This document shows, one piece after another, positions 1,477 through 53,072 of a stretch of 61,140 nucleotides of DNA. A program made the position numbers and the translations under genes. Origin of the DNA: Bacteroidota bacterium. GTDB taxonomy: Bacteria; Bacteroidota; Bacteroidia; B-17B0; Aurantibacillaceae. The stretch's first letter is position 1. Each line of letters starts with the position of its first letter. The notes under the pieces are model-generated. The model did no database searches. It was given only the letters and a program-made list of their open reading frames with translations, and was not told the origin of the DNA. Location: assembly GCA_013297775.1 (NCBI GenBank), contig JAAFIL010000022.1, forward strand, positions 1-61,140, in the 5' to 3' direction.

Positions 1477-1477
1477 A

Positions 1478-3253
1478 ATGGAACCGAAATTTATCTTAAA
1501 CCGAGAAAAGATTAGCGATGCAGACATTGAAAAGAATAAAAATTTCGATGAACTTTTAACCAAGTTTAAAAATCAAAGTATTCAAAAGGCGCGCAACGAT
1601 CGAAGTTGGTGGCGTAAGAAAAGCATACGCTACTCTGCCGCCATTTTAGGTGCAGTTGTGGTTTGCACGGTTACTTTATCTCAACTTTATCAATCAAATT
1701 CTAACTTAAAAAAAACGAATGCGTTAACTTCTACTTCAACAAACAAAAAAGAGTCTGCTAAACCGTTGGCAGATAAAAAACAAAGGTCGGTAACACCATT
1801 AAACCCGCATTGGGATGTGGCCTACTCGCGCTACAAGGTAAATGCGGGTAAAGGTGCCAGTTTGGTGCATGCAAGTCGGTCTAAAATTCAAGTACCTAAA
1901 AATGCTTTTGTAACGAAGGCAGGTCAAATTATTGAAGGCGAAGTAGAAATTTTGTACCGCGAAATTCATAAGGTAAGTGAGCAATTGATGAGCGGTATTC
2001 CAATGCAGTACGACTCTGCGGGTACTACTTACGATTTTGAAAGTGCGGGCATGTTTGATATTAAAGGCGAGAAAAATGGGGAGCCTGTGTTTTTAAGTTC
2101 GAAGGCTACTTTAACCGTTCAGTTAGCAAGTGAAAGAGAGGGAGCGCAGTTTAACCAATATTTGTGGGACAGTGTGGCCGGAAATTGGCGGTATTTACAA
2201 AAGGATATTTTAAACCCTTTAAAGCCCGAAACACACACGGCTCAACAAAGAGTGGCGGCATCTGCGCTTTCTAAGGCCGATGTTGAAAAGCAAGTTAACG
2301 AAGTTGAGGTGGAAGGTAAAAAGAAAATTGAACAGCAGTATGCGCAGCAAGTGGCTAAGTTGCCTGTCGTAAAACAACCCGTGAAGCCTCGTAAAATAAG
2401 TAATCGTCAAAACTTTACGTTAGAGGTTGATAAGAATGAATTTCCAGAGTTAAGTGGGTTTAATAATGTGATGTTTGAAGTGGGCGATGAGAATAAAAAC
2501 TATTCGGATAAATATACGGAGGTAACTTGGAACGATGTTCAGGTGAGTGATGGGCCACAAAAAGGAATTAATTATTTATTGAGTTTGCGCAAGGGGAATC
2601 AGTTGTTAGAGTTAATTGTTTACCCATGTTTAAATAATGTAGATTTTGAAAAGGCTAACTCGGCTTTTAAAGCGAAAATGGTTGATTATGAAAAAGCACT
2701 AGCAGAACGTAAAGCTAAAGAGGAAAAGTTGAGAGCTGACATGTTGGCGCGCCAGAAAGAATACGAGACTGAAATGAAGCGCAATAAGGAAGAGCGTTTA
2801 AAAAATTACATACGTGAAATGAAAGCAATGGAAGCGGCCAATGCCAATGAGGTAGCCAGTTTATCGGGTGCGGCTAAAGTGTTGCGGGTGTTCCAAATTA
2901 GTCAGTTTGGAACGTATAATAGTGATGGACCGCGTTTACGAACTGGTGATTATAAGCCAAGTGTTGCGTATCAACTCAATAGCAAGCCGTTTCAGCCCAA
3001 CCAAGTTTATGTAATGGATTATAAAGACCGTATGTTTTATTTGTATAGTTATAAAGAGGTTTCGGATTTAATTTTTAAGAAAGGGGTTCGGTATGCGGTG
3101 TGTGTGCCAGTTAATGGACAACTTTATGTGAAACAATTGTTTAACGATGACCCAGAGGTGATAGCCAAGAAATCAAAGTTGATGCTTGACTTGAAAGCGT
3201 TACCGAGTGATGTTGAAACGATAGAAGATGTAAAACGGTATTTTGAGATTTAG
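1478..3253 (+). CDS. Single-pass membrane protein, possible anti-sigma partner of the ECF factor
   Basis: 591 residues. The N-terminal 47 or so residues are charged and cytoplasmic (NFDELLTKFKNQS, then RSWWRKK). One membrane span follows at about 50-70. The rest is predicted to be periplasmic: a beta-rich domain at about 110-250 (IQVPKNAFVTKAGQIIEG, AGMFDIKGEKNG), a linker, a second domain at about 305-385, a long charged coiled coil at about 390-455 rich in Lys/Glu/Arg, and a C-terminal domain. It starts 1 bp after the sigma gene, so translation is probably coupled. I see no standard zinc anti-sigma (HxxxCxxC) motif. Anti-sigma function is therefore inferred only from topology and position. 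It could instead be a sigma-dependent envelope protein. Confidence 0.6.
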   Translation: MEPKFILNREKISDADIEKNKNFDELLTKFKNQSIQKARNDRSWWRKKSIRYSAAILGAVVVCTVTLSQLYQSNSNLKKTNALTSTSTNKKESAKPLADKKQRSVTPLNPHWDVAYSRYKVNAGKGASLVHASRSKIQVPKNAFVTKAGQIIEGEVEILYREIHKVSEQLMSGIPMQYDSAGTTYDFESAGMFDIKGEKNGEPVFLSSKATLTVQLASEREGAQFNQYLWDSVAGNWRYLQKDILNPLKPETHTAQQRVAASALSKADVEKQVNEVEVEGKKKIEQQYAQQVAKLPVVKQPVKPRKISNRQNFTLEVDKNEFPELSGFNNVMFEVGDENKNYSDKYTEVTWNDVQVSDGPQKGINYLLSLRKGNQLLELIVYPCLNNVDFEKANSAFKAKMVDYEKALAERKAKEEKLRADMLARQKEYETEMKRNKEERLKNYIREMKAMEAANANEVASLSGAAKVLRVFQISQFGTYNSDGPRLRTGDYKPSVAYQLNSKPFQPNQVYVMDYKDRMFYLYSYKEVSDLIFKKGVRYAVCVPVNGQLYVKQLFNDDPEVIAKKSKLMLDLKALPSDVETIEDVKRYFEI

Positions 3254-3972: not shown

Positions 3973-5037
3973 CTAAAATTGAATGGCTAAACTTCCGGTT
4001 AGGTAATAATTTTCGGTGCGGTTACTAAAAAGTGGATCGGTGGCTTTGTACTGTTTAGCTTCTACTCTTAGTTGTAGGCCTTCGCTTATCAAATAATCTA
4101 AATTAATGCTGCTCCCCCAAACTTGAAAACCATTTTTAGTATTGCTTGCAATTTGGATTTGTTTTGCGTCGTTATAATACTCGGCTCTTACACCCAGTTT
4201 AAGTTGTTTCGTAAGACCCAAGCGCACGACGGCAAGTGGGGTGTACCAAACGCCATAATTGGTATCGTTGTATTTATCTTGTCCAATATCGAAGCCTAAA
4301 ATAAAGCCAATACGTTTGGTAGGTTCGGCTTGTACATAAAAATTATGAAATTGACGTATTGCATTTAGACTGTCGGGTTTAAGGCTTCCTAAAAAAGTAC
4401 TGTAATTCAGTATCCATTTTTCGGTGGGTTTATAATTGATTTGAAACCCTCCGGCGGGTAGTTGCGAGTAGGCGGGACGAGAAATACGCTGCCATCCATT
4501 TAAACCTAAAACAACCATATTTAATTTACCTGAGGGGCTTTGGTAACTGCATTTTATACCCGATTCAAAATAAGGCGAGTTTTCGGCGGCAATGCTTCGG
4601 GTTAAATTCCAACAATCTGAACTAATGGCACTTTCGAAGCCAATGTGTGAAGGAAAAATACCGGCTTCTAGCCAAATAGCTTGGGTATTAGATAGTTTTA
4701 CGCCAATGGAGGCTTCGTAAATAAATTGCGCCCAAGTAGGCTCTGCGCTGAGGTTATATTGTGGGTAATTTCCGGCCATTAACGAAGCATTGGCTCGAAC
4801 TTTATTTTTTTGATAAGCGGCGCGTGCCAGTATTAAGTTGGCGTTAACTTCGTTGTGGCGTTTATGGTTGTAAATAAATGAAGCCTTGTTATTTTGCTGA
4901 GGTTCTGAAACATCGTAGCTATAATATATTTCGGCATAACCACTAAAACGCCAGGGGCTTAACGTATCGTTTTGGGCATAGCTATTAACAATGTGGAGTA
5001 GTAAACCGAATATTAATAAAATAATTTGTTTTACCAT
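3973..5037 (-). CDS. Outer-membrane porin, BBP2/OmpL-like
   Basis: 354 residues with a signal peptide ending NSYAQ (residues 1-21). The mature start WRFSGYAEIYYSYDV is typical of the beta-barrel porin-2 family in Bacteroidota. Alternating amphipathic strands run through the whole length (for example IWLEAGIFPSHIGFESA and GFILGFDIGQDKY), and the protein ends in Phe (LAIQF) as outer-membrane barrels do. Expected role: diffusion of small solutes across the outer membrane; no substrate can be named. It is transcribed alone, converging on the sigma-factor operon and diverging from the 5337 gene. Family assignment rests on overall pattern rather than a catalytic motif. Confidence 0.75.
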   Translation of the reverse strand: MVKQIILLIFGLLLHIVNSYAQNDTLSPWRFSGYAEIYYSYDVSEPQQNNKASFIYNHKRHNEVNANLILARAAYQKNKVRANASLMAGNYPQYNLSAEPTWAQFIYEASIGVKLSNTQAIWLEAGIFPSHIGFESAISSDCWNLTRSIAAENSPYFESGIKCSYQSPSGKLNMVVLGLNGWQRISRPAYSQLPAGGFQINYKPTEKWILNYSTFLGSLKPDSLNAIRQFHNFYVQAEPTKRIGFILGFDIGQDKYNDTNYGVWYTPLAVVRLGLTKQLKLGVRAEYYNDAKQIQIASNTKNGFQVWGSSINLDYLISEGLQLRVEAKQYKATDPLFSNRTENYYLTGSLAIQF

Positions 5038-5282
5038 TTGCTGCTTATAAGAAAAATTAATTTTAAGTTCATGAGACTTTTTCCAAATTTACAAAAATAC
5101 AAAAGTAGTTTAGTTAATGAATGCGTGTTACACCAACTTATTCTTATGATACCATTTATCCTTGAGCTAGTTTGGAGTGCTTACCAGTTTAAATCCATTT
5201 TTAAATAGGTATTACTGTTAGATAAAATGCCGTTTCAACCTTAACTGAAACCGCTACACATCTTATAAAAATAGCTAGTTGC

Positions 5283-5314
5283 TTGTTTACATTTCAACTT
5301 TATGTGTAACTTTA
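5283..5314 (+). promoter_or_regulatory. Possible Bacteroidota-type promoter
   Basis: TTG at 5283-5285 and TAACTTTA at 5307-5314 resemble the -33 (TTTG) and -7 (TAnnTTTG) boxes used by the Bacteroidota primary sigma factor. Spacing is slightly long at 21 bp. It lies about 20 bp before the ATG at 5337. The match is imperfect in both boxes. Confidence 0.3.
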
Positions 5315-5336
5315 GAGCCATTATTTATTATTAGAG

Positions 5337-5738
5337 ATGAGAATTATTCCGTTGAGTACACTTTATTTTTTTATTTTAATTAGCTGCTCTACATGTCTTT
5401 TTTCTCAAGATGATTTTGTAGGAAAAATAACTTTCTCGAAAGCTCAACTTGTGAAGGTGTTAAATAAAAGTAAAGCTAAGTTAAGCGATTATAAAGTAGG
5501 CGATAGTGTTTGGATATATCGCGATACCACTACTTATACCAAAGCCAATGTAAATTTAGTTGGCGAGCACTGGCAAAAGATAGGGACAGGTTTAATTACG
5601 GCAGCGGCTTTAAACGAATTAGCTTTAAACATAGTGGAAGTAGATACTGGTAAAGAACGCTTAAAATCAAAATCTATTTATGCGGAGAGATTTTTTGTTT
5701 TAGGCAAAAAAGTAAAAGTTATTTTAAAAACGGATTAA
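5337..5738 (+). CDS. Exported protein of unknown function
   Basis: 133 residues. The N-terminus is a signal peptide (LSTLYFFILISCSTCLFSQ) cut near residue 24. The ISC at residues 15-17 could be read as a lipobox, but the SQ end suggests ordinary cleavage. The mature part is small, lysine-rich and mixed alpha/beta, with a VGDSVWIYRDTTTYTKANV segment that looks like a small barrel. No family is recognised. The dCMP deaminase start follows its stop by 1 bp, so they share a transcript, although no functional link is evident. Confidence 0.7.
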   Translation: MRIIPLSTLYFFILISCSTCLFSQDDFVGKITFSKAQLVKVLNKSKAKLSDYKVGDSVWIYRDTTTYTKANVNLVGEHWQKIGTGLITAAALNELALNIVEVDTGKERLKSKSIYAERFFVLGKKVKVILKTD

Positions 5739-5739
5739 C

Positions 5740-6216
5740 ATGCCAAACAAATTGCGCCCAAGCTTCGATGACATATACATGGATTTAGCAGCCACTTTAT
5801 CGCAGCGGTCGCATTGTGTTAAAGCACAAGTAGGTGCTGTGTTAACCAAAGATACCCGAATCATTTCATTGGGCTACAATGGTCCGCCAACTGGTACACA
5901 CAATTGTGACGAAGAGTGGCCCGAGCACGGTTGTCCGCGCGATAGCAAAGGCTCCTGTTCACTAGCACTCCATGCCGAGCAAAATGCTATTTTATATGCC
6001 GCTAAAAATCAGATGGCTTTAGAAGGTGCTACACTTTATGTTACCCTTTCGCCTTGCATTGCTTGCGCACGAGTTATTTTTACAACAGGTATAAAAAAGG
6101 TATTTTATAAAGCCAGTTACGCCGCCTTTAAAGGATTGCCAACCGATGAAGGGGTTGATTTTTTAAGAAAATTTGGTGTCGAAGTTATTAAATATGAGAA
6201 AGCAGAAACCCTTTAA
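5740..6216 (+). CDS. Deoxycytidylate (dCMP) deaminase
   Basis: 158 residues, normal for the family. It carries the zinc-dependent deaminase signature: HAE at 78-80 (zinc-binding His and catalytic Glu, in ALHAEQNAI) and PCIAC at 105-109 with the two zinc cysteines. The SLGYNGPPTGTHNCDEEW segment at 43-60 and a further Cys/His pair (EHGC) are typical of dCMP deaminases (ComEB-like), which bind a second zinc. The enzyme turns dCMP into dUMP in the cytoplasm, supplying thymidylate synthesis. It sits between two genes for exported proteins in a tight operon and overlaps the next gene by about 23 bp. Confidence 0.9.
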   Translation: MPNKLRPSFDDIYMDLAATLSQRSHCVKAQVGAVLTKDTRIISLGYNGPPTGTHNCDEEWPEHGCPRDSKGSCSLALHAEQNAILYAAKNQMALEGATLYVTLSPCIACARVIFTTGIKKVFYKASYAAFKGLPTDEGVDFLRKFGVEVIKYEKAETL

Positions 6217-6547
6217 AGTACTCCTTTATGGTTTTATAACTTTTCTTTTCTTGGTGAATGGTTTCACTGGCGTTTTAGCACAAACCGAAACTAGTGGAGC
6301 TGGACCTAAAAAACCATCTATTGCCAGCGAACGTAAAAAACGAAAAGCCATTCGGAAAGAAGCCAAAGAACAACGTAGTAAAGAACGAGCCGAACGCAAA
6401 GCGATTAAAGCCTATCACAAACGTTTACAAACCAAAACCGTACGCAAACGCATGAAACGCAACCGTGCCAAGGCACAGCGGGTAAACGAAAATAAACGAG
6501 AGTTCTTTTTAAAACGTTGGTTTACTCGAAAAACTAAGAAGGCTTAA
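6194..6547 (+). CDS. Small, very basic exported protein
   Basis: 117 residues when started at ATG 6194 (MRKQKPFKVLLYG), chosen because it puts the signal peptide (ending GVLAQ) at the N-terminus; an in-frame ATG at 6173 adds seven residues. After the signal the chain is almost all Lys/Arg/Glu/Ala helix (ERKKRKAIRKEAKEQRSKER) and ends REFFLKRWFTRKTKKA. The gene overlaps the dCMP deaminase by 23 bp, implying translational coupling. A highly charged exported helix could bind nucleic acid, lipopolysaccharide or peptidoglycan, but I do not recognise it. Confidence 0.65.
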   Translation: MRKQKPFKVLLYGFITFLFLVNGFTGVLAQTETSGAGPKKPSIASERKKRKAIRKEAKEQRSKERAERKAIKAYHKRLQTKTVRKRMKRNRAKAQRVNENKREFFLKRWFTRKTKKA

Positions 6548-6748
6548 CGTAAACCGACCACCAATTATTGTTTAAAACGAACCACTTATCAAGTTTTTAT
6601 TACCACATTTTTAAACCGACGTTTGAGTTACGTTAAAAGTTACTAATATTGTAAAACGAGAGTTATCTGTTTGTTAATGGACGTTAAATGAAAAAATAAC
6701 ATTAATATAACTTGATTATCAACATATTATGAATAAATTAAAAAAAGA

Positions 6749-6780
6749 TTTGTTTAATATAGCCTTACTTTCTATTTTTA
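6749..6780 (+). promoter_or_regulatory. Probable promoter of the TonB receptor operon
   Basis: TTTG at 6749-6752 and TATTTTTA at 6773-6780 are spaced by 20 bp, matching the Bacteroidota -33/-7 pattern (TTTG, 19-21 bp, TAnnTTTG) except for the last base. The predicted start of transcription is near 6787, giving a leader of about 33 nt before the ATG at 6820. Confidence 0.45.
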
Positions 6781-6819
6781 TGGCTTGTAAATAAGTAAAA
6801 ATTAAGCAATTTTAACAAT

Positions 6820-9800
6820 ATGCTAAAATATCTATACACCTCAGTTTTAATTACCTTCTTAGGTATTCTTTCAGTTAACGCGCAGAACGATAACGGTGCC
6901 ATTAAGGTAACATTAAAAGATAAACAGACCAATGAGACCATTCCATTTGCCAATGTGGTGGTTTATCAAAATGGTGTTCAAGTAGGTGTAGCTACCACCA
7001 ATATGGACGGCGAAGCAACTATTAAACCACTATCGCCAGGTAAGTACGATGTTAAAGGTGTTTATGTAGGTTATCAAGCCTCTGAAACAAAAGGGGTATT
7101 AGTGGGGGAGGGTAAAACTGTTCCTGTTACTATTTCTTTATCAAACGGAGAAGGTGTGCGCCTCGATGAAGTAGATGTAGTTACTTATGCAGTGCCTTTA
7201 ATTGACCCAGATACTAAAACGGGTCAAACGGTAACCCGCGAAGATTACCAAAACTTAGCCACTAAAGATATTAACTCGGTGGTTGCAACCACAGCGGGTG
7301 TTTACCAAGCCGACGAGGGCGGAGGATTAAACGTGCGTGGTGGTCGTGGACAAGCTACCACCTATTTTGTAGATGGTGTTAAAGTAATTGGTACGCCCAA
7401 TATTCCTCAACAAGGTATAGACCAAATCAACGTTATTTTAGGAGGATTACCAGCCAGTTATGGTGATGCCTCTTCGGGTGTTATTTCTATCTCTACGCGT
7501 GGTCCTCAATCTACTTATTTTGGTGGAGTAGAATTAATATCTTCACAATTAACCGATCCTTACGGTTATAACTCTTTAGGTTTCAGTTTAGGAGGGCCGC
7601 TTTACAATAAAAAAGATTCAACTGGTAACAAACGCACGGTACTTGGGTTCTTCTTATCGGGGCAAGGAACTTACCAAAAAGATCCAGATCCGTCGGCAGT
7701 GCCACTTTACAAAATAAAAGATTCGCGTTTAGATGAAATAAAGAAAACACCTTTACGCCCAACAGCCAACGGCTTAGGTTCTATTAACGAGTTAAATTAT
7801 GTTACAAAAGACGATTTAGAAGAGTTAAGAACTCGTCCGAACGCCTCTAGCCGCGGTATTACACTTAATGGTAAAATTGATTTTGCACCAACTTCTAAAA
7901 CAAATATCTCGTTAGGTGGTTTTTTAGAGTACGGAAACTCAAATCGTTTCGGAATGGGTAACATGCTATTTAACTCTAATAATAATGCGCAAGATTTAAG
8001 TACAACGTACCGGTTCAATATTGGCTTAACTCAAAAATTCGGAGACAATTCAGTTAGTAAAGATAAAAAACAAGCGTTGATTACTAGTCCGTTCTTCCGT
8101 TTTATTGCCAGCTTTGAACGCGAAAACTCAGTTTCGCAAAGTTCGGTTCACAAAACCAATTTTTTTAATTATGGATACATGGGTAAATTTGATCGTACTT
8201 TTTTAGAGCGTGATTTTTTATTCAATTACGAATTAAACAAGAAGTTTGCATTAGGAACCGACACCATTTGGGCTTATGAATATCAAAGTCGTTCCGAACT
8301 CATTCCTCGCTTTACGCCCTCTAGTTTAAATCCAGATGCAGCACGTTTAACTGATTTCTTATTGAACGATGTTGGTGCATTTGTTCCTTTCGATTTTATT
8401 TCGGCTGCTGGTGGCTTGCGTAACGGTGATCAACCTCAAGCTATTCACGGTTTGTATAACAGCTATGGTGCAACTTTTGGGGGGTATATTCGAACTTTGC
8501 GTACTTTAGCTCGTTTTGCTACTTCTTTTAATGCCGACATTAAAAATCATGCGCTGACTTTAGGGTTTGAATTTGACCAACGTACCTCTTCATTTTACCA
8601 AAATAATTCAGTAGGTTTATGGACTTTGATGCGTCAATTATCTGATAACCACTTACAAGGTTTAGATAAAGAAAACCCAATTTTAGTACCTGAGTTGTCG
8701 GGAAGCATTCCGTTTTATTTTTATGATAATAAATATTTAGAAGGAAATCAAAGCCGTTTTTCGGTTAAACTAAACGAAAAATTAGGTTTACCCAAAAACT
8801 CAACGCAACGTGTTAACATAGATGCTTTAGACCCAAGTACGTTTAGCATGGATATGTTTAGTGCTGTAGATTTGTTAGGAACAAACGATTTGAATAGAAG
8901 TGTAGAGTACCGTGGATTTACACATACAGGGAAACTCAATACCAAGAAAACAGACATCAATGATTTTTTAAATGCCAAAGATGATTTGGGTTATAGAACT
9001 CGTCCACAAGGAGCTTTTAATCCCATTTATATGGCTGGTTACATCATGGATAAGTTCGACTTCAAAGACATGAAGTTCAACGTTGGGGTGCGTGTGGATC
9101 GTTACGATGCCAATCAAAAAGTATTGAAAGATAAATTCATGTTGCACGAAGGGGCTAAGATTTCTGATTTAGCTTCGTTATATCCTAACCGAAAATTCGA
9201 ATTACCTGCCAACCTTTCTAAAGATGCACAAGTTTATATTGATGGAACTGACTTTAAGCAAATAGTTGGGTATCGCTTAGATGATCAATGGTACGATGCT
9301 AAAGGAACAGAAATATCGGATCCTAGTTTAATCAATTCATCAGAAGGTAAGCCTTTACCTTTATTCAAAGATAAAGAAAACTATACGCAGCCTATGTCGG
9401 CTGGAGGATTCACCAATTACAAAGCTGTAATAAACATTATGCCTCGGGTAGCATTCTCTTTCCCTATTTCGGATGTAGCTAACTTTTTTGCACACTACGA
9501 TGTGTTAACTGTTCGTCCAGAAGGAAATGCACTCAGTTTAATAGATTATTTCCAAGCTGCTAATTTAACAAGCGGGGTTATTGGTAATCCTAATTTACGT
9601 CCTCAACGTACGGTAGATTATGAATTAGGCTTTAGCCAAGTGTTAACTGAGCGTAAAAATGCAGCTTTAACTATCAATGCGTTTTACCGCGAGATGCGCG
9701 ATTTAGCTCAACAACGTGCTATTGTTGGGGCTTATCCTAAAACGTATATTACCTATGATAATTTCGATTTTGGAACAGTTAAAGGTTTAGCGTTTACGTT

Positions 9801-10509
9801 TGATTTACGCCGCTCGGGTGGGTCTCGAATTAACGCCAACTATACTTTACAGTTTGCCGAAGGGTCTGGTTCAAATGCTAATAGTGGTGCCAACTTAGCA
9901 AGTAGTGGTCAGCCTAATTTGCGTATTTTACAACCTTTAGATTATGACCAACGTCACACCATGACTCTCATCTACGATTACCGCTTTGGTTCAGGTAAAG
10001 ATTACAAAGGCCCTAAATACAAGCGTAAAAATGGAAACGACATGGAAATTTTAAAGAATGTAGGGTTTAACTTTAACTTACAATTAGGTTCAGGTACACC
10101 TTATACACGCCGTTCGTTCCCAGTAGCTTTTGGTAGCAATCAACGGGCTAACCTCGAAGGGCAAATCAATGGCAGCTACAAACCATGGAATATTCGTACC
10201 AGTTTACGTGTAGATAAAAACTTTGAATTAACTTGGGGTAAAAAAGATAGCGATAAGCGTAAATCAGCAAACTTAAATGTGTATTTGCAGGTGCTTAACC
10301 TTTTAAACCGTCGTAATGTATTAAATGTATATTCATTTACTGGAAATCCAGATGATGATGGGTATTTAGCTTCTGCCCAAGCGGCGCAAGCCATACAAAG
10401 TTTGCCTAGCCCTCGATCTTATCAAGATTTGTACGCTATTCGAATAAACTCTCCCGGTAATTACAGTAACCCCCGTGTAATAAGAATAGGTTTATTGTTT
10501 GACTTTTAA
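6820..10509 (+). CDS. TonB-dependent outer-membrane receptor with carboxypeptidase-like N-domain
   Basis: 1229 residues. Signal peptide 1-22 (ends SVNAQ). A carboxypeptidase-regulatory-like beta-sandwich follows at about 24-112 (TIPFANVVVYQNGVQVG, then the GYQ turn). The plug is at about 140-230 (GGGLNVRGGRGQATTYFVDG and YGDASSGVISI). A long beta-barrel runs to the C-terminal Phe (IGLLFDF). Such receptors use TonB/ExbBD energy at the outer membrane. No SusD partner follows. Instead, 2 bp downstream begins a 1483-residue secreted protein, then a PorV/PorQ-like protein. This receptor may therefore act in assembly or anchoring of the secreted partner rather than nutrient import. That role is inference; the domain call is firm. 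Confidence 0.88.
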   Translation: MLKYLYTSVLITFLGILSVNAQNDNGAIKVTLKDKQTNETIPFANVVVYQNGVQVGVATTNMDGEATIKPLSPGKYDVKGVYVGYQASETKGVLVGEGKTVPVTISLSNGEGVRLDEVDVVTYAVPLIDPDTKTGQTVTREDYQNLATKDINSVVATTAGVYQADEGGGLNVRGGRGQATTYFVDGVKVIGTPNIPQQGIDQINVILGGLPASYGDASSGVISISTRGPQSTYFGGVELISSQLTDPYGYNSLGFSLGGPLYNKKDSTGNKRTVLGFFLSGQGTYQKDPDPSAVPLYKIKDSRLDEIKKTPLRPTANGLGSINELNYVTKDDLEELRTRPNASSRGITLNGKIDFAPTSKTNISLGGFLEYGNSNRFGMGNMLFNSNNNAQDLSTTYRFNIGLTQKFGDNSVSKDKKQALITSPFFRFIASFERENSVSQSSVHKTNFFNYGYMGKFDRTFLERDFLFNYELNKKFALGTDTIWAYEYQSRSELIPRFTPSSLNPDAARLTDFLLNDVGAFVPFDFISAAGGLRNGDQPQAIHGLYNSYGATFGGYIRTLRTLARFATSFNADIKNHALTLGFEFDQRTSSFYQNNSVGLWTLMRQLSDNHLQGLDKENPILVPELSGSIPFYFYDNKYLEGNQSRFSVKLNEKLGLPKNSTQRVNIDALDPSTFSMDMFSAVDLLGTNDLNRSVEYRGFTHTGKLNTKKTDINDFLNAKDDLGYRTRPQGAFNPIYMAGYIMDKFDFKDMKFNVGVRVDRYDANQKVLKDKFMLHEGAKISDLASLYPNRKFELPANLSKDAQVYIDGTDFKQIVGYRLDDQWYDAKGTEISDPSLINSSEGKPLPLFKDKENYTQPMSAGGFTNYKAVINIMPRVAFSFPISDVANFFAHYDVLTVRPEGNALSLIDYFQAANLTSGVIGNPNLRPQRTVDYELGFSQVLTERKNAALTINAFYREMRDLAQQRAIVGAYPKTYITYDNFDFGTVKGLAFTFDLRRSGGSRINANYTLQFAEGSGSNANSGANLASSGQPNLRILQPLDYDQRHTMTLIYDYRFGSGKDYKGPKYKRKNGNDMEILKNVGFNFNLQLGSGTPYTRRSFPVAFGSNQRANLEGQINGSYKPWNIRTSLRVDKNFELTWGKKDSDKRKSANLNVYLQVLNLLNRRNVLNVYSFTGNPDDDGYLASAQAAQAIQSLPSPRSYQDLYAIRINSPGNYSNPRVIRIGLLFDF

Positions 10510-10511
10510 AA

Positions 10512-13500
10512 ATGAAGATTATGAAAATTAAAGTTGCACTACTATTTCTTTTAGCATTCAACATGTTGAATGCTAAAGAAAACTTTGGAAAAGAAAGAGG
10601 AGCTACCAGTGGTGGGTCTTCGAGCTCAAGTCCCGAAAAGCTTATGAACGATATTTGTGCCGATCCAATCAAAAGCCGTGAGTTTTGGATAAACAACGTG
10701 CGTATGATTGTATTTACAGGTGGCGATATGTGGTGGGATAGAGATGGAGGCGGAAACCCGTATTACATCATACCAGCAACTGCTAACAAAGCAGATGGAG
10801 CCTCATCTTTATTTGCAGGTGCCATTTGGTTAGCTGGTTTAGATGGAGGTGGACAGCTTAAAGTAGCCGCTATGACTTATCGTCAAAATGGAATTGATTT
10901 TTGGACTGGTCCTCTAAATAAAAATGATGCCAGTGTAACAGCTGAGGTTTGTCAACAGTGGGATCGTTTTTTCTACATTACCCGTAGAGAAGTAGATGAG
11001 TTTGTGGCAAGTGGCGGTACAAAAACAACAGCCAATATTTTAGATTGGCCAGGCAATGCCGATCCAACTAAAGGACAAGACCTTAAATTAGCACCTTTTG
11101 AAGATCTAAACGGAAACTCTACTTATGAACCAGAATCGGGAGAATACCCTGCTTACGATGTAAAAAACTTAGCTTTAAAAGACAACAATGGTTTTTGTAG
11201 TGCTAAACTTTACGGCGATGAAACCTTATTTTGGGTATTTAACGATAAGGGTGGTATTCACCGCGAATCGCAAGGTATTCCCATTGGTATCGAAGTGCGT
11301 GCACAAGCCTTTGGTTTTAGAACAAATGATGAAATCAATAACATGACCTTTTATAGTTACGAGATTTTCAACCGCTCTTCATTTTTAGTAAATCAAACCT
11401 ATTTTGCAGTTTGGAATGATGCAGATTTGGGAGGTTATACGGATGATTATGTAGGATGTGATGTTCAACGCGGCTTAGGCTTCATGTACAACGCAAATTC
11501 GACCGACCCAAGTGTTGGTGGTTCTCGTGGATACGGTGATTTTCCACCAGCAGTTGGTTGCGACTTTTTCCGTGGACCTTTAGCTGACGCATTCGACGGT
11601 ATTGACAATGATCAAGATGGGTTCGATGAAGCCATTGAAGCCATTGGTATGGCTAAGTTTTTGTATTACAATAATAATATTGGTAACTTTAATGTTAACA
11701 CGACTAACCCAAATATTGCTTCGCATTATTATGGTTACATGACTGGTTTTTGGAAAGATGGCAATCCATTTACACAAGGTGGTAACGCTTACGGTGGTTC
11801 TATACCTGTTAACTTTGTTTACGATGGAGATCCTGTTGCGGGTACAGGTTGGACAGAGCGTACCTCTGGTAACCTTCCAGGCGATCGTCGTTTCATTCAA
11901 TCGGCTGGTCCTTTCTCACTTAAACCAGGTGCTGTTAATTACATTACATTTGGTATGCCTTGGGCACAATCCTCTATTCGTTTTGGTAACTTAGCTTCTA
12001 TAACTTTATTAAGAATTGCCGATGATAAAGCGCAAGCCTTATTCAATAACTGTTTCAAAATATTAGATGGTCCAGAAGCACCAGATATGACTGTTCAAGA
12101 AATGGACAAAGAAGTTATTCTTTATTTAACCAACTCAGGAGCTTCGAATAACTTCAACAATAGCTTTGCAGATATTGATCCTACCATTTCATCTAACCCA
12201 ACTTATACCAACACAAGTTGCGGTACGTCAACTTCAACACTTAATAACCCAGATAGATTTTACCGTTTTGAAGGGTATAAAATTTACCAATTACGTGATG
12301 ATCGTGTGAACTCTGAAGATTTGTTCAACGAAACAAAAGCAAAATTAGTGATGCAGTGCGACATTAAGAACGATGTAGTACGTGTTGTTAATTATACATT
12401 TGATGGGCAAGTAAACGCTATTGTTCCAAAAGTAATGGTTGATGGTGAGAACAAAGGTTTACGTTCTACTGTTCGCTTAACTGATGATGCATTTGCTTCG
12501 GGAGACAACAAACGTTTAGTAAATAGTAAAACCTATTACTACATGTCTGTAGCTTATGCTTACAACAATTACATAACCTACAAACAAGATCAATCGCCAG
12601 AGTCTAATCCATGCGAAAACTATTTGGGTCAGAAAAAATTGTACTTAGAAGGTCGTAAAGTAAAACGTATTGCTGCTATTCCGCACATTACTGATATTGA
12701 AAAAGATGGAACAACTCCAGTAGCAACCTATGGGTATGGTCCTAAAGTTACACGTATCGAAGGGCAAGGAAATGGTGGAAATTTCTTAGACCTTACACCA
12801 GCTTCTGAAGCGGCTATCGTAGCCAATGGGTTTTTATCTAACGTAGAATATCAAAATAACGCTTCTCCTTTAGCTGTTAAAGTGGTTGATCCTTTACGCA
12901 TAACAGGTGCTGAATTTACATTCCGTTTCGTTGACCCTAAAACCAAACAAACTCCTGATAAAAAAGCGGCTTTACGTGGAATAATTGGGACAATAAGCCC
13001 TGACTCTGTATCATGGGAATTAAAGAACGTAACCACTGGTGATATTTACTACCCTAACATATCTTCTAGAGAGGTGAAAACAAATACAAATATTCCAACT
13101 CCAGCCGTTGTTCTAAAAACCATTAAAGTGGCTGATGAGTATTATATTGATGAATTAGGTTTATCTATTTCATTAAAGCAAGTGGCCGATCCAGCTGAAG
13201 TTTTAGGACGTAATACAGTATTTACTAATACGGTTAATACTTATGTAGAAGAAGGTGTTTCGCAAGAAGCGTTTTTAGGAGCTAGCTTAACTTTCGATAA
13301 CCCACAACAAAACTGGTTAACAGGTTTACGTGATGCCGATGGGACATCGCCTACTAACTGGATTTTAAGTGGTGGTACGAGTACAGATTTAGACAATGAA
13401 TCGGATGCGTTCTACTACAAAAAATCAGACGGAAAGAAAGTATTCTACGATCCTAAGAAAGTATTTAGTAATATCCTAAACGGTACTTGGGCACCTTACT

Positions 13501-14963
13501 CACTTTGCAGTTATAGCTTAAATGCAGGTGGTCGTCCTTTCTACGGACCAGGTTACCATAACATTCAACGTTTGTTAATGAATTTACCAGGCGAAGATAA
13601 TAACACAAAAGTATCTGAAGATTTTACCGACCTCAGAAAACTATCTAGTGTTGACGTTGTATTCACAAGCGATAAGTCAAAATGGACGCGTTGTCCAGTT
13701 CTCGAAATGCAAGAGCGTCGTTCATTGTCTAAAGATAATACAGCGTTTTTCCAGCCACGCCAAACGCCTTCGGTAGATAAAGCAGGTATTCCGTTAGGAG
13801 ATCCAGGTTGTAATACCAGCGAGGCTTCGATTACTGCAACTGTTGGTATGGGTTGGTTTCCGGGTTATGCTATTAACTTAGAAACAGGCGAACGTTTGAA
13901 CATGGCTTTTGGCGAAGATTCGTACCAAAAAGAAAATAATGGTGACGATATGATGTGGAATCCTACTTCAACAACAAGTATCAATACGCCGTTTCAGTTT
14001 GCTTTTGGTGGCAAACACTTTATCTATATTTTCGGCAACTCAAGCTCAGAAAAATTTGATGTACCAGTATTAGGAAACTTAACAAGTTATTACCCATCTA
14101 GTGTGGTTAATGTTCCTTTAGGTGCAGGCCGCTACGATAATGGTGCTCGCCTAATGAACTTATTCAATTCATTCTTTGGGTTGTTACAAAACGGAGAACT
14201 TATCCAAGGTGCACCAGCTAATGGCATCATGTCTTCTTTAATCCGCGATGTAATGTGGGTAAATATTCCTTTAACTCGTCCTGGGTTTGCATTTAAAAAC
14301 CCTAAAGATATTCCTACCACAGCTAAAGTGAAGATACGTGTTCAAAAGCCGTATCGTTATGGATACTCAACTTATTTCCGTGCGCCTTACAGCTACTCAG
14401 TTTCTACAAATGCGCAACCACAATACGCTAACGTAGGTAAACTTCCTTTATCAACGTTTTCTACCACAGCTTGGTTACCCGTAGATACTTCAACAACAGC
14501 GAGAAATAACAATTTCCCAATGTATAGTTTCAATACCAACGAAGTAGCGGCTCTCATTAAGCAAACTTCGGTTGCCAAAAATGCTTTAGATTTAATACGT
14601 GTAGTTCCAAATCCATATTACGGGGCTTCTAGCTACGAATCTAGTCGTATTGATAACCGCGTTAGAATTACGAACTTACCTAATAAGTGTAAAATCAAAA
14701 TCTTCACCATTAATGGAACACTAGTTAGAACCTTCAATCGCGATGTTACAGATACCGAAGATTTGTATCAAGCATCAACAAGTTCAAGTTCTGATATCAA
14801 AAAGGCACGCCGCATACCTTATGAAGATTGGGATTTGAAAAACCAGTCGGGTATTTCGGTAGCAAGTGGCTTATACATCATTCATATTGACGCCCCAGGA
14901 TTAGGTGAAAAAATAGTGAAATGGTTTGGTGTAATGCGTCCTTTAGATTTACAAGATTATTAA
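10512..14963 (+). CDS. Large secreted protein with T9SS-type C-terminal domain
   Basis: 1483 residues. The start is MKIMKIKVALLFLLAF with the signal peptide ending LNAKE; an in-frame ATG lies three codons in. The body is rich in Gly, Asn, Asp and aromatics, with Asp/Asn-rich loops that look calcium-binding (FEDLNGNSTYEPESGEY, FDGIDNDQDGFDEAIE). The last 110 or so residues match the type A sorting-domain pattern: VVPNPYYG, RVRITNLPNKCKIKIFTING, then WDLKNQSGISVASGLYIIHI and GEKIVKWFGV. It should be exported by Sec, crossed through the T9SS translocon and held at the surface. Function of the body is unknown. It lies between the receptor and PorV/PorQ genes in one operon. A perfect 28-bp palindrome lies in the signal-peptide codons. 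Confidence 0.78.
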   Translation: MKIMKIKVALLFLLAFNMLNAKENFGKERGATSGGSSSSSPEKLMNDICADPIKSREFWINNVRMIVFTGGDMWWDRDGGGNPYYIIPATANKADGASSLFAGAIWLAGLDGGGQLKVAAMTYRQNGIDFWTGPLNKNDASVTAEVCQQWDRFFYITRREVDEFVASGGTKTTANILDWPGNADPTKGQDLKLAPFEDLNGNSTYEPESGEYPAYDVKNLALKDNNGFCSAKLYGDETLFWVFNDKGGIHRESQGIPIGIEVRAQAFGFRTNDEINNMTFYSYEIFNRSSFLVNQTYFAVWNDADLGGYTDDYVGCDVQRGLGFMYNANSTDPSVGGSRGYGDFPPAVGCDFFRGPLADAFDGIDNDQDGFDEAIEAIGMAKFLYYNNNIGNFNVNTTNPNIASHYYGYMTGFWKDGNPFTQGGNAYGGSIPVNFVYDGDPVAGTGWTERTSGNLPGDRRFIQSAGPFSLKPGAVNYITFGMPWAQSSIRFGNLASITLLRIADDKAQALFNNCFKILDGPEAPDMTVQEMDKEVILYLTNSGASNNFNNSFADIDPTISSNPTYTNTSCGTSTSTLNNPDRFYRFEGYKIYQLRDDRVNSEDLFNETKAKLVMQCDIKNDVVRVVNYTFDGQVNAIVPKVMVDGENKGLRSTVRLTDDAFASGDNKRLVNSKTYYYMSVAYAYNNYITYKQDQSPESNPCENYLGQKKLYLEGRKVKRIAAIPHITDIEKDGTTPVATYGYGPKVTRIEGQGNGGNFLDLTPASEAAIVANGFLSNVEYQNNASPLAVKVVDPLRITGAEFTFRFVDPKTKQTPDKKAALRGIIGTISPDSVSWELKNVTTGDIYYPNISSREVKTNTNIPTPAVVLKTIKVADEYYIDELGLSISLKQVADPAEVLGRNTVFTNTVNTYVEEGVSQEAFLGASLTFDNPQQNWLTGLRDADGTSPTNWILSGGTSTDLDNESDAFYYKKSDGKKVFYDPKKVFSNILNGTWAPYSLCSYSLNAGGRPFYGPGYHNIQRLLMNLPGEDNNTKVSEDFTDLRKLSSVDVVFTSDKSKWTRCPVLEMQERRSLSKDNTAFFQPRQTPSVDKAGIPLGDPGCNTSEASITATVGMGWFPGYAINLETGERLNMAFGEDSYQKENNGDDMMWNPTSTTSINTPFQFAFGGKHFIYIFGNSSSEKFDVPVLGNLTSYYPSSVVNVPLGAGRYDNGARLMNLFNSFFGLLQNGELIQGAPANGIMSSLIRDVMWVNIPLTRPGFAFKNPKDIPTTAKVKIRVQKPYRYGYSTYFRAPYSYSVSTNAQPQYANVGKLPLSTFSTTAWLPVDTSTTARNNNFPMYSFNTNEVAALIKQTSVAKNALDLIRVVPNPYYGASSYESSRIDNRVRITNLPNKCKIKIFTINGTLVRTFNRDVTDTEDLYQASTSSSSDIKKARRIPYEDWDLKNQSGISVASGLYIIHIDAPGLGEKIVKWFGVMRPLDLQDY
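10550..10577. repeat. Perfect 28-bp palindrome inside the signal-peptide codons
   Basis: The sequence is fully self-complementary about its centre between 10563 and 10564; the middle reads CATTCAACATGTTGAATG. Past a one-base bulge the pairing goes on for about four more bases. It begins 38 nt after the ATG at 10512. In mRNA it would form a long stem early in the second gene of the operon; in DNA it could be a dimer-binding site. Confidence 0.75.
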
Positions 14964-14985
14964 TGCTTAAGTTCAGTTAGAAATC

Positions 14986-16053
14986 ATGAAAAAACATATA
15001 ATTTTATCATCCATTTTAGTATCGGGACTGTTACTTCCTGATGTAGCAAACGCTGGTAACCCAGAACGTGCAGGTCAGGCTGGTGCGGGTGTTCTATTAA
15101 TTAATCCGTATGCTCGTAACAGTGGCTGGGCAGGGTCTAACTCAGCAAAGGTAAGAGGGCTCGAAGCACAGTTCTTAAATATTGCAGGAACCGCATTTAC
15201 TCGGAAAACCGAAGTTCTATTTAACCGTACGGTTTGGTTACAGGGTACTCAAATTTATTTGAACACCATTGGTATTACCCAAGGTATTGGCGAAACTGGA
15301 ACGCTCGGCGTGGGTTTGGTGGCTCTTAATGCAGGAAGAATTGATATCACAACCGAAGACCAACCAGAAGGTGGATTAGGTACATTTAATCCTACATTTT
15401 ATAATTTGAGTTTTTCTTATGCTAAAATGTTCTCTGATAATATTTTTGGCGGTATTAACGTGAAACTCATTTCTGAACAAATTGCGAACGTTTCGGCTCG
15501 TGGTGTAGCTTTTGATGCGGGTATCCAATACCATACTGGAAAGTACGATCAAATTCACATTGGTATTGCGCTTAAAAATTGGGGACCTAAAATGCGTTAC
15601 CAAGGCGATGGTTTAGCTAAACAAGCAGCGGTGCGTTACCAAAGCGGTTACGATTTAACGGTATTGAGCCGTAGTAATGCTTTTGAATTACCAGCTTTAG
15701 TAAACATTGGTACAGCTTATGATTTTTATTTAACCAGAGATAGCACAGGTTTGAAAAAAACACACCGTGTTACCTTAGCGGCCAACTACACTTCTAATTC
15801 CTTTACCTACGATAACTATTTAGTAGGCTTAGAGTACGGGTGGAAAGAAATTTTGATGGTACGTGGTGGTTTGCAAATGGAGAAAAATATATTTACAGTA
15901 GATCGCGCTACAGTTTATACAGGTCCTACCTTAGGTGCAACCGTTGAATTGCCATTTAGCGAAAGTAAATCAACCGTAGGGTTTGATTATTCGTATCGCT
16001 TTACCAATCCATTTGGCGGCACCCACACCTTTGGTTTAAGGCTAAATTTATAG
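14986..16053 (+). CDS. PorV/PorQ-family outer-membrane protein
   Basis: 355 residues with a signal peptide ending VANAG near 24. The mature start AGQAGAGVLLINPYARNSGW, then QFLNIAGTAFTRKTEVLFN, follows the PorV/PorQ (UPF0164) pattern in which an N-terminal Gly/Ala-rich loop and a (W/L)NPA-like segment precede a 14-strand barrel. The chain is barrel-like throughout and ends FGLRLNL. PorV is the T9SS shuttle that takes cargo from the translocon to the attachment complex; PorQ-like paralogues are less understood. Encoded 22 bp after a T9SS cargo gene, this one is plausibly a dedicated partner of that cargo. It is unlikely to be the housekeeping PorV, because porU is not next to it. Confidence 0.75.
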   Translation: MKKHIILSSILVSGLLLPDVANAGNPERAGQAGAGVLLINPYARNSGWAGSNSAKVRGLEAQFLNIAGTAFTRKTEVLFNRTVWLQGTQIYLNTIGITQGIGETGTLGVGLVALNAGRIDITTEDQPEGGLGTFNPTFYNLSFSYAKMFSDNIFGGINVKLISEQIANVSARGVAFDAGIQYHTGKYDQIHIGIALKNWGPKMRYQGDGLAKQAAVRYQSGYDLTVLSRSNAFELPALVNIGTAYDFYLTRDSTGLKKTHRVTLAANYTSNSFTYDNYLVGLEYGWKEILMVRGGLQMEKNIFTVDRATVYTGPTLGATVELPFSESKSTVGFDYSYRFTNPFGGTHTFGLRLNL

Positions 16054-16093
16054 GAATTTAAGAATACAATTATTATTTTTACACTAATTTATT

Positions 16094-16126
16094 AGAATCC
16101 CGACTTGTCGGGATTCTTTGATTTTT
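16094..16126 (+). terminator. Rho-independent terminator
   Basis: AGAATCCCGAC at 16094-16104 pairs perfectly with GTCGGGATTCT at 16107-16117 (11 bp stem, TT between). T-rich TTGATTTTTAT follows. It closes the receptor-secreted protein-PorV/PorQ operon just before greA. Confidence 0.85.
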
Positions 16127-16140
16127 ATAGAACTTAAAAA

Positions 16141-16614
16141 ATGGCACAAGTTGGATATTACACCGAAGACGGTTTACAAAAGATGCGCGTTGAACTGAAT
16201 CAATTAGAAACCATTGAGCGCAAAAAATGCACGCAAGCAGTAGCAGAAGCCAGAGATAAAGGTGATTTAAGCGAAAATGCTGAGTACGATGCTGCGCGCG
16301 AAGCACAAGGATTGTTAGAAGTTAAAATTGCAAAGCTAAAAGAAGTGTTGGCCAATGCCCGCTTAGTTGACGAAACCCAACTAGACCTCAGTAAAGTGAG
16401 CATTTTGACTACTGTAAAAATTAAGAATACAAAAAATAATGCCACCATGCAATACACCTTAGTTGCCGAAAACGAAGCCGACCTAAAATCGGGTAAAATT
16501 TCGGTGGACTCGCCCATTGGAAAAGGACTCTTAGGAAAGCGAGTAGGCGATAAGGCAGATGTAACGGTTCCAGCGGGCGTGATAACATTTGAGGTAATGG
16601 AAATTAGCCTTTAG
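16141..16614 (+). CDS. greA: Transcription elongation factor GreA
   Basis: 157 residues, standard length. The N-terminal coiled coil carries the tip sequence ARDKGDLSENAEYDAAREAQ at 37-56. Its acidic residues (Asp42, Glu45) correspond to those that hold magnesium in the RNA polymerase active site. The C-terminal FKBP-like domain (about 82-157) ends with SPIGKGLLGKRVGDKADVTV. GreA enters the secondary channel of RNA polymerase and stimulates cleavage of backtracked RNA. The ATG at 16141 follows a strong terminator, so greA starts its own unit and is joined by the HIT gene 11 bp downstream, an order common in Bacteroidota. Confidence 0.96.
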   Translation: MAQVGYYTEDGLQKMRVELNQLETIERKKCTQAVAEARDKGDLSENAEYDAAREAQGLLEVKIAKLKEVLANARLVDETQLDLSKVSILTTVKIKNTKNNATMQYTLVAENEADLKSGKISVDSPIGKGLLGKRVGDKADVTVPAGVITFEVMEISL

Positions 16615-16625
16615 TTAAATAAAAA

Positions 16626-17018
16626 ATGGCTAGTATCTTTTCTAAAATCATTGCTGGAGAAATTCCTTCCTATAAAATTGCTGAAAACGAACACGCATTG
16701 GCTTTTTTAGATATTAACCCTTTAAAACATGGGCACACCTTAGTTGTACCAAAAGTAGAAACCGATCAATTTTTTGATGTGGAAGATAAAGGGCTTACGG
16801 AACTTATTTTATTCTCGAAAAAAATAGCCGTGGCCATAAAGAAGGCGTACCCTTGCAACCGTGTTAGTATGCAAGTTATAGGTCTCGAAGTGCCACACGC
16901 CCATGTTCACCTTATACCTATTAATACACTCGATGATTGTAATTTTTTCCGTCCTAAATTAAATTTGGATAAAGAAGCGTTTCTAAATATTGCCGAGAAA
17001 ATCAAACGTCATTTATAA
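16626..17018 (+). CDS. HIT-family (HINT-type) nucleotide hydrolase
   Basis: 130 residues. The histidine triad is HAHVHLIP at 91-98 (His91, His93, His95). The N-terminal segment FSKIIAGEIPSYKIAENE is the normal start of HINT branch proteins, and HGHTLVVPK at 35-43 is also conserved. The family cleaves phosphoramidate or related bonds on nucleotides such as AMP-lysine; the natural substrate is unclear. It lies 11 bp after greA in the same direction and converges on dusB with only 3 bp between stops. Confidence 0.92.
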   Translation: MASIFSKIIAGEIPSYKIAENEHALAFLDINPLKHGHTLVVPKVETDQFFDVEDKGLTELILFSKKIAVAIKKAYPCNRVSMQVIGLEVPHAHVHLIPINTLDDCNFFRPKLNLDKEAFLNIAEKIKRHL

Positions 17019-17021
17019 TTG

Positions 17022-18014
17022 TTAAGACGGTACTGTTTCAAAATTTTGTTCTAAACATTGTTCAAGCACCTCTAACAAATCGTTGAGTTTGCTATGTGTA
17101 ACCAGTTTTACACGTGTATCTTTAAAGTTAGGAATACCTTTAAAATAATTGGCGTAATGGTTGCGCATTTCTAAAACCCCTAATACTTCGCCTTTCCATT
17201 CTACCGATTTTAATAAATGCGTTTTGCACACTTCCACTCTATTGGCCATAGTAGGTTTGGGCAAATGCGTTCCTGTTTCAAAGAAATGTTTAATCTCATT
17301 AAAAATCCAAGGGTAGCCAATAGCGGCGCGTCCAATCATAATGCCATCTACGCCGTATTTATTTTTATAGGCGAGGGCGCGTTCAGGCGAGTCCACATCT
17401 CCATTTCCAAAAATAGGAATTTTGATGCGAGGATTATTTTTTACTGCTGCAATATATTCCCAATTGGCACTGCCTTTATACATTTGCGCACGCGTTCGGC
17501 CGTGTATGGTTAACGCGGCTATACCTGCATCTTGCAAGCGTTCGGCTACCTCCATAATATTAATCATGCTATCGTCCCAACCCAAGCGGGTTTTTACTGT
17601 TACAGGTTTAGAAGTACTTCTAATAACTGCTTTTGTAAGCCGTATCATTAAATCTACATCTTTTAAAACCCCAGCTCCTGCACCTTTACAAACTACTTTT
17701 TTTACTGGACATCCAAAATTAATATCAACTATATCTGGATTGGTAACATCTACTATTTTAGCCGAGAGTGCCATCGCCTCTTCATCGCCACCAAATAGTT
17801 GAATGCCAATAGGCCGCTCGTAGTCAAATATATCGAGTTTTTTGCGACTTTTAATGGCATCACGAATGAGGCCTTCGCTACTAATAAATTCGGTGTACAT
17901 TAAATCGGCACCGTATTGTTTACACACATAACGAAAAGGGGGATCGCTTACATCCTCCATGGGCGCTAACAACAAAGGGAAATCGGGTAACTTTATAGAA
18001 CCTATTGTGGGCAT
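17022..18014 (-). CDS. dusB: tRNA-dihydrouridine synthase, DusB type
   Basis: 330 residues. An FMN-dependent TIM barrel opens with LLLAPMEDVSDPPFRYVCKQ (14-33), which binds FMN. The catalytic cysteine is Cys102 in NFGCPVKKVVCKGAGAG. KTRLGWDD, IHGRTRAQMYKG and the FMN-phosphate loop FGNGDV/GIMIGRAAIGYPWIF are all present. It reduces specific uridines in tRNA to dihydrouridine using NADPH. A short helical domain follows the barrel (NRVEVCKTHL onward). It converges on the HIT gene and has no co-directional partner close by. Confidence 0.93.
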   Translation of the reverse strand: MPTIGSIKLPDFPLLLAPMEDVSDPPFRYVCKQYGADLMYTEFISSEGLIRDAIKSRKKLDIFDYERPIGIQLFGGDEEAMALSAKIVDVTNPDIVDINFGCPVKKVVCKGAGAGVLKDVDLMIRLTKAVIRSTSKPVTVKTRLGWDDSMINIMEVAERLQDAGIAALTIHGRTRAQMYKGSANWEYIAAVKNNPRIKIPIFGNGDVDSPERALAYKNKYGVDGIMIGRAAIGYPWIFNEIKHFFETGTHLPKPTMANRVEVCKTHLLKSVEWKGEVLGVLEMRNHYANYFKGIPNFKDTRVKLVTHSKLNDLLEVLEQCLEQNFETVPS

Positions 18015-29014: not shown

Positions 29015-29023
29015 AACCTTGTG

Positions 29024-33018: not shown

Positions 33019-33022
33019 CGTT

Positions 33023-34027: not shown

Positions 34028-34043
34028 AAACCTCAACTAACCC

Positions 34044-53068: not shown

Positions 53069-53072
53069 TGAT

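Follow-up and report, generated by a model that had tools for sequence, protein, structure and literature searches.

A three-gene cassette of TonB-dependent receptor, large surface protein and PorV-family barrel suggests an unnamed relative of SusCD nutrient-import systems

Do adjoining genes for a TonB-dependent receptor, a large surface protein and an outer-membrane barrel encode one complex and, if so, what does it do? The question is raised by a stretch of 61,140 nucleotides, here called the window, from contig JAAFIL010000022.1 of a Bacteroidota bacterium (assembly GCA_013297775.1; class Bacteroidia, Aurantibacillaceae). On its + strand the window encodes, in this order, a receptor of 1229 aa (6820–10509), a protein of 1483 aa that resembles substrates of the type IX secretion system (T9SS; 10512–14963), and a 355-aa barrel of the PorV/PorQ family (14986–16053). 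A first-pass annotation, made from the sequence alone, proposed that the three form a dedicated surface complex rather than serve general nutrient uptake. Our analysis suggests that the trio is a relative of the SusCD nutrient-import systems, so far without a name, which is kept across much of the phylum.

Conservation and co-divergence of the three genes

The open reading frames (ORFs) bear out the tight spacing first noted for the trio. Thus, 2 bp separate the receptor and large-protein genes, 22 bp separate the large-protein and barrel genes, and all three lie on the + strand. We searched 60 genomes, including that of the window, with each of the three proteins; 37 were of one genus and 23 of other families. 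The trio adjoins, in the same order, in 47 of the 60 (30/37 in the genus and 17/23 outside it), with a contig end cutting a gene in a few. Order and strand were confirmed by reading the DNA of the retrieved loci. All three proteins are encoded in 21 of 24 families of the class. The trio is split over contigs in seven genomes (G002, G010, G012, G020, G048, G049 and G052), as contig breaks would give. Three fragmented or incomplete genomes (G011, G023 and G031) show either part of the large protein alone, or the receptor alone, or none of the three. No barrel or receptor was found at the thresholds used in G043, G050 and G057; G043 has a partial large-protein match.

We counted a cassette as complete when the receptor profile reached 100 bits, the barrel 60 and the large protein or its C-terminal domain (CTD) 30, with each partner on the same strand and no more than 800 bp away. 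The 183 rows scored hold three large-protein genes twice, three class loci being the same as three named loci, which leaves 180 distinct genes. Receptor, large protein and barrel follow in this order for 134 of them, which is not chance. As named loci we used the best 80 of at least 587, a choice biased to close relatives. Nearly all come from metagenome-assembled genomes (Bacteroidia, Bacteroidetes, Bacteroidales, Flavobacteriales, Cryomorphaceae, Crocinitomicaceae, Schleiferiaceae, Sphingobacteriaceae and others), and we treated them as class members, some being designated only Bacteroidetes. In these best 80 loci, 62 of 84 large-protein genes sit in a complete cassette, and another 10 either lack one of the two partners or are at the edge of a contig. 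The fraction is 35/41 for 40 regions mostly from other classes. Median gaps over 123 complete cassettes, all distinct and none with a gene cut by a locus end, are 27 and 29 bp, measured from the first methionine of each ORF. Homologues of the three genes are therefore not commonly found apart; they adjoin in 47/60 genomes and keep their order in other classes, amid different neighbours. Lone large-protein paralogues in G054, G058 and G059 occur in genomes that also encode a complete cassette, and might use its barrel. Lone loci include L087, L088 and L089, where large-protein paralogues have the cassette CTD and no receptor or barrel of their own.

Across 109 genomes of the phylum, again including that of the window, 54 have a large-protein match, and many of those from other classes have long candidate lists. 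For three multicopy genomes of other classes we collected barrel matches at E up to 1e-5 and read the surrounding regions. G088 has 14 barrel genes (nine complete cassettes, two variants), G072 has 16 (11 complete cassettes, one variant) and G141 has eight (four complete cassettes, one variant). In the variants L250, L266 and L276 the barrel gene comes directly after the receptor gene and a gene encoding the CTD lies some kb upstream; in L255 the receptor gene is 1.6 kb upstream.

Cassettes were compared only between these three genomes, so that species divergence was held constant. Receptor distances correlate with those of the barrel (r = 0.88) and of the large protein (0.92); barrel distances also correlate with those of the large protein (0.82) and of the CTD (0.71). 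For each correlation, none of 5000 within-genome permutations reached the observed value. Over the six directions together, the nearest foreign cassette is the same for all three genes in 29 of 48 comparisons and is not in 19. This shows that paralogous cassettes have been passed on as a block. We are close to certain that the trio is a functional unit. The idea of a cargo dedicated to its own PorV/PorQ-family barrel and TonB receptor is thus well supported by the adjoining trio in 47/60 genomes, with the lone large-protein paralogues counting against it. An adhesin or glycan-binding surface protein on the barrel, with the receptor co-regulated and outside the complex, would parallel an operon for Type B cargo in the same window, described below. 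We find this improbable. Every complete cassette begins with the receptor (as the count, covering 134/180 genes, defines it), and receptor divergence tracks that of the large protein best.

Downstream of the barrel gene are a terminator-like hairpin (16094–16117, +), the greA gene (16141–16614, +) and a HIT-family gene (16626–17018, +), the two genes being recognised by Pfam and synteny. The hairpin has 10 pairs, the highest among 15 hairpins in a scan of positions 5000–18000, and agrees with the earlier view that a single terminator closes the trio. The total in that interval is not above chance (15 vs 10.9 in shuffles, standard deviation 3.6). We treat greA, the conserved next gene in the class, as a neighbour and do not claim it as a component; the HIT-family gene is likewise a conserved neighbour. 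The two genes follow the cassette on the same strand in 62 of 67 class and named loci with downstream room (greA in 63/67), and greA is also present in 29/29 genus loci tested. Cassette, greA and HIT-family gene form a very stable five-gene neighbourhood in the class, and the copy in the class has the look of a landmark that is fixed and passed on vertically. Beside cassettes of other classes greA was found in 0/42 cases and, in a further group of eight, only in the class members L196 and L197. Hence, the adjacency of the three genes does not come from a frozen region alone. Vertical inertia of a slowly rearranging region, as the only reason why the genes adjoin, has in its favour that greA and the HIT-family gene stay adjoining in the class. 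It has strongly against it both the same order in other classes without adjoining greA and the several paralogous copies per genome, and is barely credible.

The main rival to an importer is a role in the envelope, with the receptor as an energised helper. The large protein would be a structural or envelope-biogenesis part of a housekeeping surface complex, seated on the barrel, and the receptor would give energy or act as a scaffold. Class genomes in which the trio could be placed have one adjoining copy upstream of greA and the HIT-family gene, and this looks vertical. There are also precedents: CHU_1606 co-purified with PorV, normal gingipain secretion depends on PG0534 (PMC8564354), and secretion of the protease PopC requires Oar (PMC6434023). 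Conversely, diverged multicopy cassettes occur in other classes, and the trio was not found in G043, G050 and G057. The T9SS channel SprA is present in 59/60 genomes, including these three (2407.5 bits in the window's own genome). Thus the trio, missing at our thresholds from T9SS-bearing genomes, is dispensable for the T9SS itself. We consider a housekeeping role unlikely, while still taking it seriously.

The large protein, its barrel and the receptor

The large protein, defined by its ORF and family alignment, had been taken for a T9SS protein. This stands by fold and by weak matches across the family, and does not stand by sequence cut-offs. No T9SS domain of Pfam or NCBIfam scored over cut-off, and no Pfam domain matched at E up to 1. 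The Type A CTD model TIGR04183 (cut-off 23 bits) has no match in the window protein at E up to 1, and the Type B CTD model TIGR04131 has none in it or in the family members. The PorZ model NF052228 gives 25.5 bits, far below its cut-off of 260, and aligns with the CTD only. A profile search of solved structures returned no matches at E up to 1. Among 21 family members, 15 match TIGR04183 weakly at E 0.1 (best E 3.1e-5) and 16 match the PorZ model weakly (best E 2.3e-8).

The C-terminal half is more telling as a structure. A model of residues 715–1483 (mean predicted local distance difference test score, pLDDT, 77) ends in an Ig-like domain. This domain (residues ~1354–1483; 14571–14960, +) has the T9SS CTD fold according to Foldseek and VIA-align, with NCBIfam matching weakly and the family consensus in agreement. 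For residues 1354–1475 the best match in the PDB is PorZ 5m11 (Foldseek E 2.3e-5; VIA-align Z 9.7, 2.6 Å, 89 residues, 25% identity). PorU 6za2 comes next in VIA-align (Z 8.1); Foldseek puts it fourth (E 1.5e-2). The mirolase CTD has Z 6.7, which is weak taken alone, and the NucA CTD from a T9SS complex has Foldseek rank 10. By its matches to PorZ, PorU and mirolase, the protein thus ends in the Ig-like CTD fold of T9SS cargo. In the family alignment the consensus of the C-terminal end is KWFGVMRPxDLxSF. The prediction that the T9SS exports the large protein is, in our judgement, very probably right.

In PorZ and PorU the CTD is retained, and PorQ and PorV, respectively, hold these two proteins (PMC10202324, PMC5562754, PMC11285876). 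Uncleaved CTDs have 96 and 108 residues vs 67–88 for cleaved ones, and the hairpin behind most of this difference is described as functionally not relevant (PMC11285876). The window CTD has ~120 residues from the VPNPYY motif (1365) to the end, partly through a genus-specific insertion. One could also picture an uptake unit whose barrel is a shuttle only; the large protein, released or linked to lipopolysaccharide after CTD cleavage, would be a free scavenger for the receptor. Type A cargo carried by PorV is indeed released or linked in this way (PMC10994853, PMC10202324). Such an arrangement is distinctly unlikely here, because the CTD best matches the uncleaved PorZ domain, the window protein has no Type A match at E up to 1, and a private barrel would be superfluous.

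The N-terminal domain (residues ~49–517; 10656–12062, +) is predicted to be a super-beta-sandwich like the N-terminal part of GH65/94/116-type enzymes. The model of residues 40–725, built with 48 sequences, has a mean pLDDT of 88. It aligns with dextran dextrinase 9ju0 (VIA-align Z 18.1, 3.2 Å, 252 residues, 11% identity); 50 listed VIA-align entries are at Z 14–18, and Foldseek gives E 9.5e-5. In enzymes of this type the catalytic (alpha/alpha)6 barrel comes after the N-terminal super-beta-sandwich. The alignments span the first part of the enzyme chains, short of the catalytic domain. Hence, the large protein is not indicated as a hydrolase. That it binds carbohydrate might be guessed from the modelled fold. 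Residues ~731–1340 gave no fold among the matches listed, which are dominated by CTD matches, so that this region has barely been probed. Two proteins of ~590 aa on other contigs of the same genome (L090:7752–9518 and L091:4195–5967) share the N-terminal domain, but their CTD is an ordinary Type A one (48 and 42 bits vs a cut-off of 23). Therefore, the special CTD tracks the cassette and not the N-terminal domain. At L095:4792–12318, three consecutive same-strand genes for proteins of ~840 aa each match part of the large protein, and the cassette CTD is absent.

The third protein had been called PorV/PorQ-like, and this holds. It scores 147.4 bits against the PorV family model NF033709 (cut-off 90), which all 22 family members match, and a profile search matches it with solved PorV 6h3i (E 6.6e-17). 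It is separate from the named members of the family. We rejected PorV (NF033710, 55.8 bits vs a cut-off of 250), PorQ (NF033711, 62.3 vs 220) and PorV2 (NF052325, 34.8 vs 325). A Type B/PorP pairing was also rejected; TIGR04131 has no match, and TIGR03519 is weak in 1/22 barrels. The genome encodes PorV (C94, 460 bits), PorQ (C56, 311.6 bits) and PorZ (C118, 513 bits) besides. We built a tree of 80 sequences, namely 62 of 123 cassette barrels and 18 others, hand-picked for spread. Six PorV form one clade (support 0.999, taken as the root), PorQ another (0.995) and PorV2 a third (1.0). Cassette barrels and three variants cluster with modest support (0.75), and the window barrel falls inside a clade of class orthologues (1.0). 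Ten barrels in the three multicopy genomes are lone: three are PorV over cut-off (L254, L270 and L279), one is PorQ (L272), three are PorV2-like below cut-off (L257, L271 and L278) and three are unassigned (L256, L269 and L277). These last three (L256:7718–8719, L269:859–1836 and L277:770–1753), one per genome, form a lone PorV-family clade (support 1.0) that is not PorV, PorQ, PorV2 or cassette type by score or tree.

The first gene product was recognised from its ORF, Pfam and NCBIfam profiles and PDB profile matches. It has the plug of a TonB-dependent receptor (PF07715, 32.5 bits vs a cut-off of 23.9) and a CarboxypepD_reg domain (PF13620, 42.3 vs 32.3). In the PDB, its plug region matches the colicin I receptor, PirA and other ferric-enterobactin receptors. 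It is not SusC. The SusC/RagA model TIGR04056 has no match in the window receptor at E up to 1 and is absent from the families matched at E 0.001 by 19 receptor family members. Neither the large protein nor any of 20 homologues matched a SusD model, and a lipobox-like pattern is present in 3/123 large proteins. Membership of SusCD was thus rejected for the trio, the receptor lacking a TIGR04056 match and its partner a SusD match. The window's genome has no SusC over cut-off (all 29 candidates scored), so that the early distinction between this locus and the usual SusCD pair was sound. None was found in 33/37 genus genomes (11 candidates scored per genome).

Large-protein relatives are present, and SusC over cut-off absent, in G072, G141, G149, G122, G118 and G152. 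We scored all 17 candidates in G152 and 29 in each of the others, out of 47 in G072 and out of 33 in G141. Many SusC proteins are encoded by G050 and G057, in which the trio was not found. Of the 109 phylum genomes, 32 have large protein and SusC, 22 the large protein alone, 27 SusC alone and 28 neither. Scoring covered each genome's first six candidates, and in some of the 54 genomes with large protein the match is to the CTD only. The four counts show a slightly positive association, and mutual exclusion of cassettes and SusC was rejected.

A proposed receptor-and-lid mechanism

We propose that the trio encodes one outer-membrane surface complex. The T9SS would export the large protein, and a PorV-family barrel of its own, not the general shuttle PorV, would collect it from the translocon. 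The large protein would keep its CTD and stay bound to the barrel, like PorZ with PorQ and PorU with PorV, so that the barrel may be both shuttle and permanent anchor. The anchored protein would sit over the co-encoded TonB receptor and bind or present a substrate, for which a glycan or glycoconjugate is a candidate; the receptor would import it with TonB energy. The large protein would thus do the job of SusD over SusC, as a T9SS-exported lid on a barrel and not as a lipoprotein. What we observed directly is that the three genes form a unit which is conserved, multiplied and co-diverging, that the large protein has the C-terminal fold described above, and that SusC is absent; the mechanism would extend these observations by analogy with relatives.

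Confidence differs between the parts. The dedicated barrel is probably the predicted anchor. For import by receptor and lid, the arguments on the two sides are evenly balanced. We put forward with middling confidence the reading as a whole: a complex of receptor and lid, like SusCD, in which the lid is a T9SS export and has a PorV-family barrel of its own as anchor. The part of the first-pass annotation that sets the trio apart from general nutrient uptake is not supported. Diverged multicopy cassettes, and an N-terminal fold like that of carbohydrate enzymes, look more like an uptake family.

Several observations weigh against the receptor-and-lid reading. Neither partner, and no contig edge, was found for 12 of the 84 large-protein genes in the best 80 named loci. 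Since lone large proteins exist, the barrel is hardly strictly one-to-one. Of 28 cassette-type loci in the three multicopy genomes, four depart from the usual layout: the large-protein gene is out of its central place, or the receptor gene lies at a greater distance. The co-divergence is joint inheritance, which physical contact would fit and which does not prove it. Generic Ig-like domains are close behind the T9SS domains in VIA-align (Z 7.6 and below), and PorU ranks only fourth by Foldseek. For the N-terminal domain, a common fold is no sign of binding, and the aligned parts stop before the catalytic domain. The single, near-universal class copy upstream of greA and the HIT-family gene also fits a housekeeping role. 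Finally, the cassettes are not a replacement for SusCD across the phylum.

The cassette combines two known kinds of system and is undescribed in the open papers searched. We found no description in the open PMC literature (titles, abstract starts and passages), a scope that leaves subscription papers and preprints outside. Type A CTDs are all said to be recognised by the PorV shuttle, and Type B cargoes to have a private PorP/SprF, often from adjoining genes (PMC12618676). If our reading is true, the private-shuttle principle extends from Type B to a Type-A-like CTD class. Type-A-like CTDs would then not all be served by a single shuttle, and PorV-family barrels would have diversified into many private anchors. 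This would give a purpose to many PorV/PorQ-family proteins outside PorV, PorQ and PorV2, and would suggest an import route for cassette-rich lineages in which SusC was not found. More tentatively, and a little short of an even chance, the cassettes may make up, across Bacteroidota and alongside SusCD, one more class of systems built of TonB receptor and lid, in which a cargo with a special retained CTD bypasses PorV and a cognate PorV-family barrel carries it to its receptor and holds it there.

Elsewhere in the window, positions 901–3253 encode a sigma-70-family factor and, one base apart, a 591-aa protein with no Pfam match. Positions 29021–36089 encode a MoxR-type AAA ATPase (33023–34027) amid neighbours of 457, 875 and 681 aa with no NCBIfam match at E 0.01.

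Comparison with known systems

In SusCD (RagAB), SusC carries an N-terminal carboxypeptidase-regulatory-like domain. The cassette is alike in having a TonB receptor with such a domain, a co-encoded large surface partner and several paralogous sets per genome. It differs in that the receptor is not SusC, the partner is a T9SS-type CTD protein and not a SusD lipoprotein, and a third gene encodes a PorV-family barrel.

PorQ:PorZ and PorV:PorU of the T9SS attachment complex offer the closest CTD folds, and place a CTD-retaining protein on a PorV-family barrel, as we predict for the cassette. Conversely, the window's genome has PorV, PorQ and PorZ besides, the large protein reaches the PorZ model neither in score nor beyond its CTD, and the cassette adds a TonB receptor.

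Operons of Type B cargo, PorP/SprF and PorE follow the same logic: a single operon encodes a cargo, immediately after it a private shuttle, and an envelope protein as third partner. This is the published Type B layout (PMC12618676). The window has an example at 42567–55271 (+), with a 3176-aa Type B cargo (TIGR04131, 45.9 bits vs a cut-off of 35), a 323-aa PorP/SprF barrel (282.9 bits vs 90.55) and a 748-aa OmpA protein with sub-threshold similarity to both PorE and CHU_0125. The components differ: CTD and barrel are of the Type B and PorP/SprF kinds there, and of the Type-A-like and PorV-family kinds in the cassette, where the third partner is a TonB receptor.

Two further systems share single features. 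PorF (PG0534) and CHU_1606 are T9SS-associated TonB-type receptors, the latter co-purified with PorV in Cytophaga hutchinsonii (PMC8564354); the relevant passages of those reports name no cassette. BamG:BamH of the Bacteroidota β-barrel assembly machinery (BAM) pairs a FadL-type barrel with a surface protein on its extracellular loops (PMC12578637, PMC12611786). However, BamH is a lipoprotein and BamG binds BamA, whereas the cassette barrel belongs to the PorV family, with a weak BamG score in 1/22 members.

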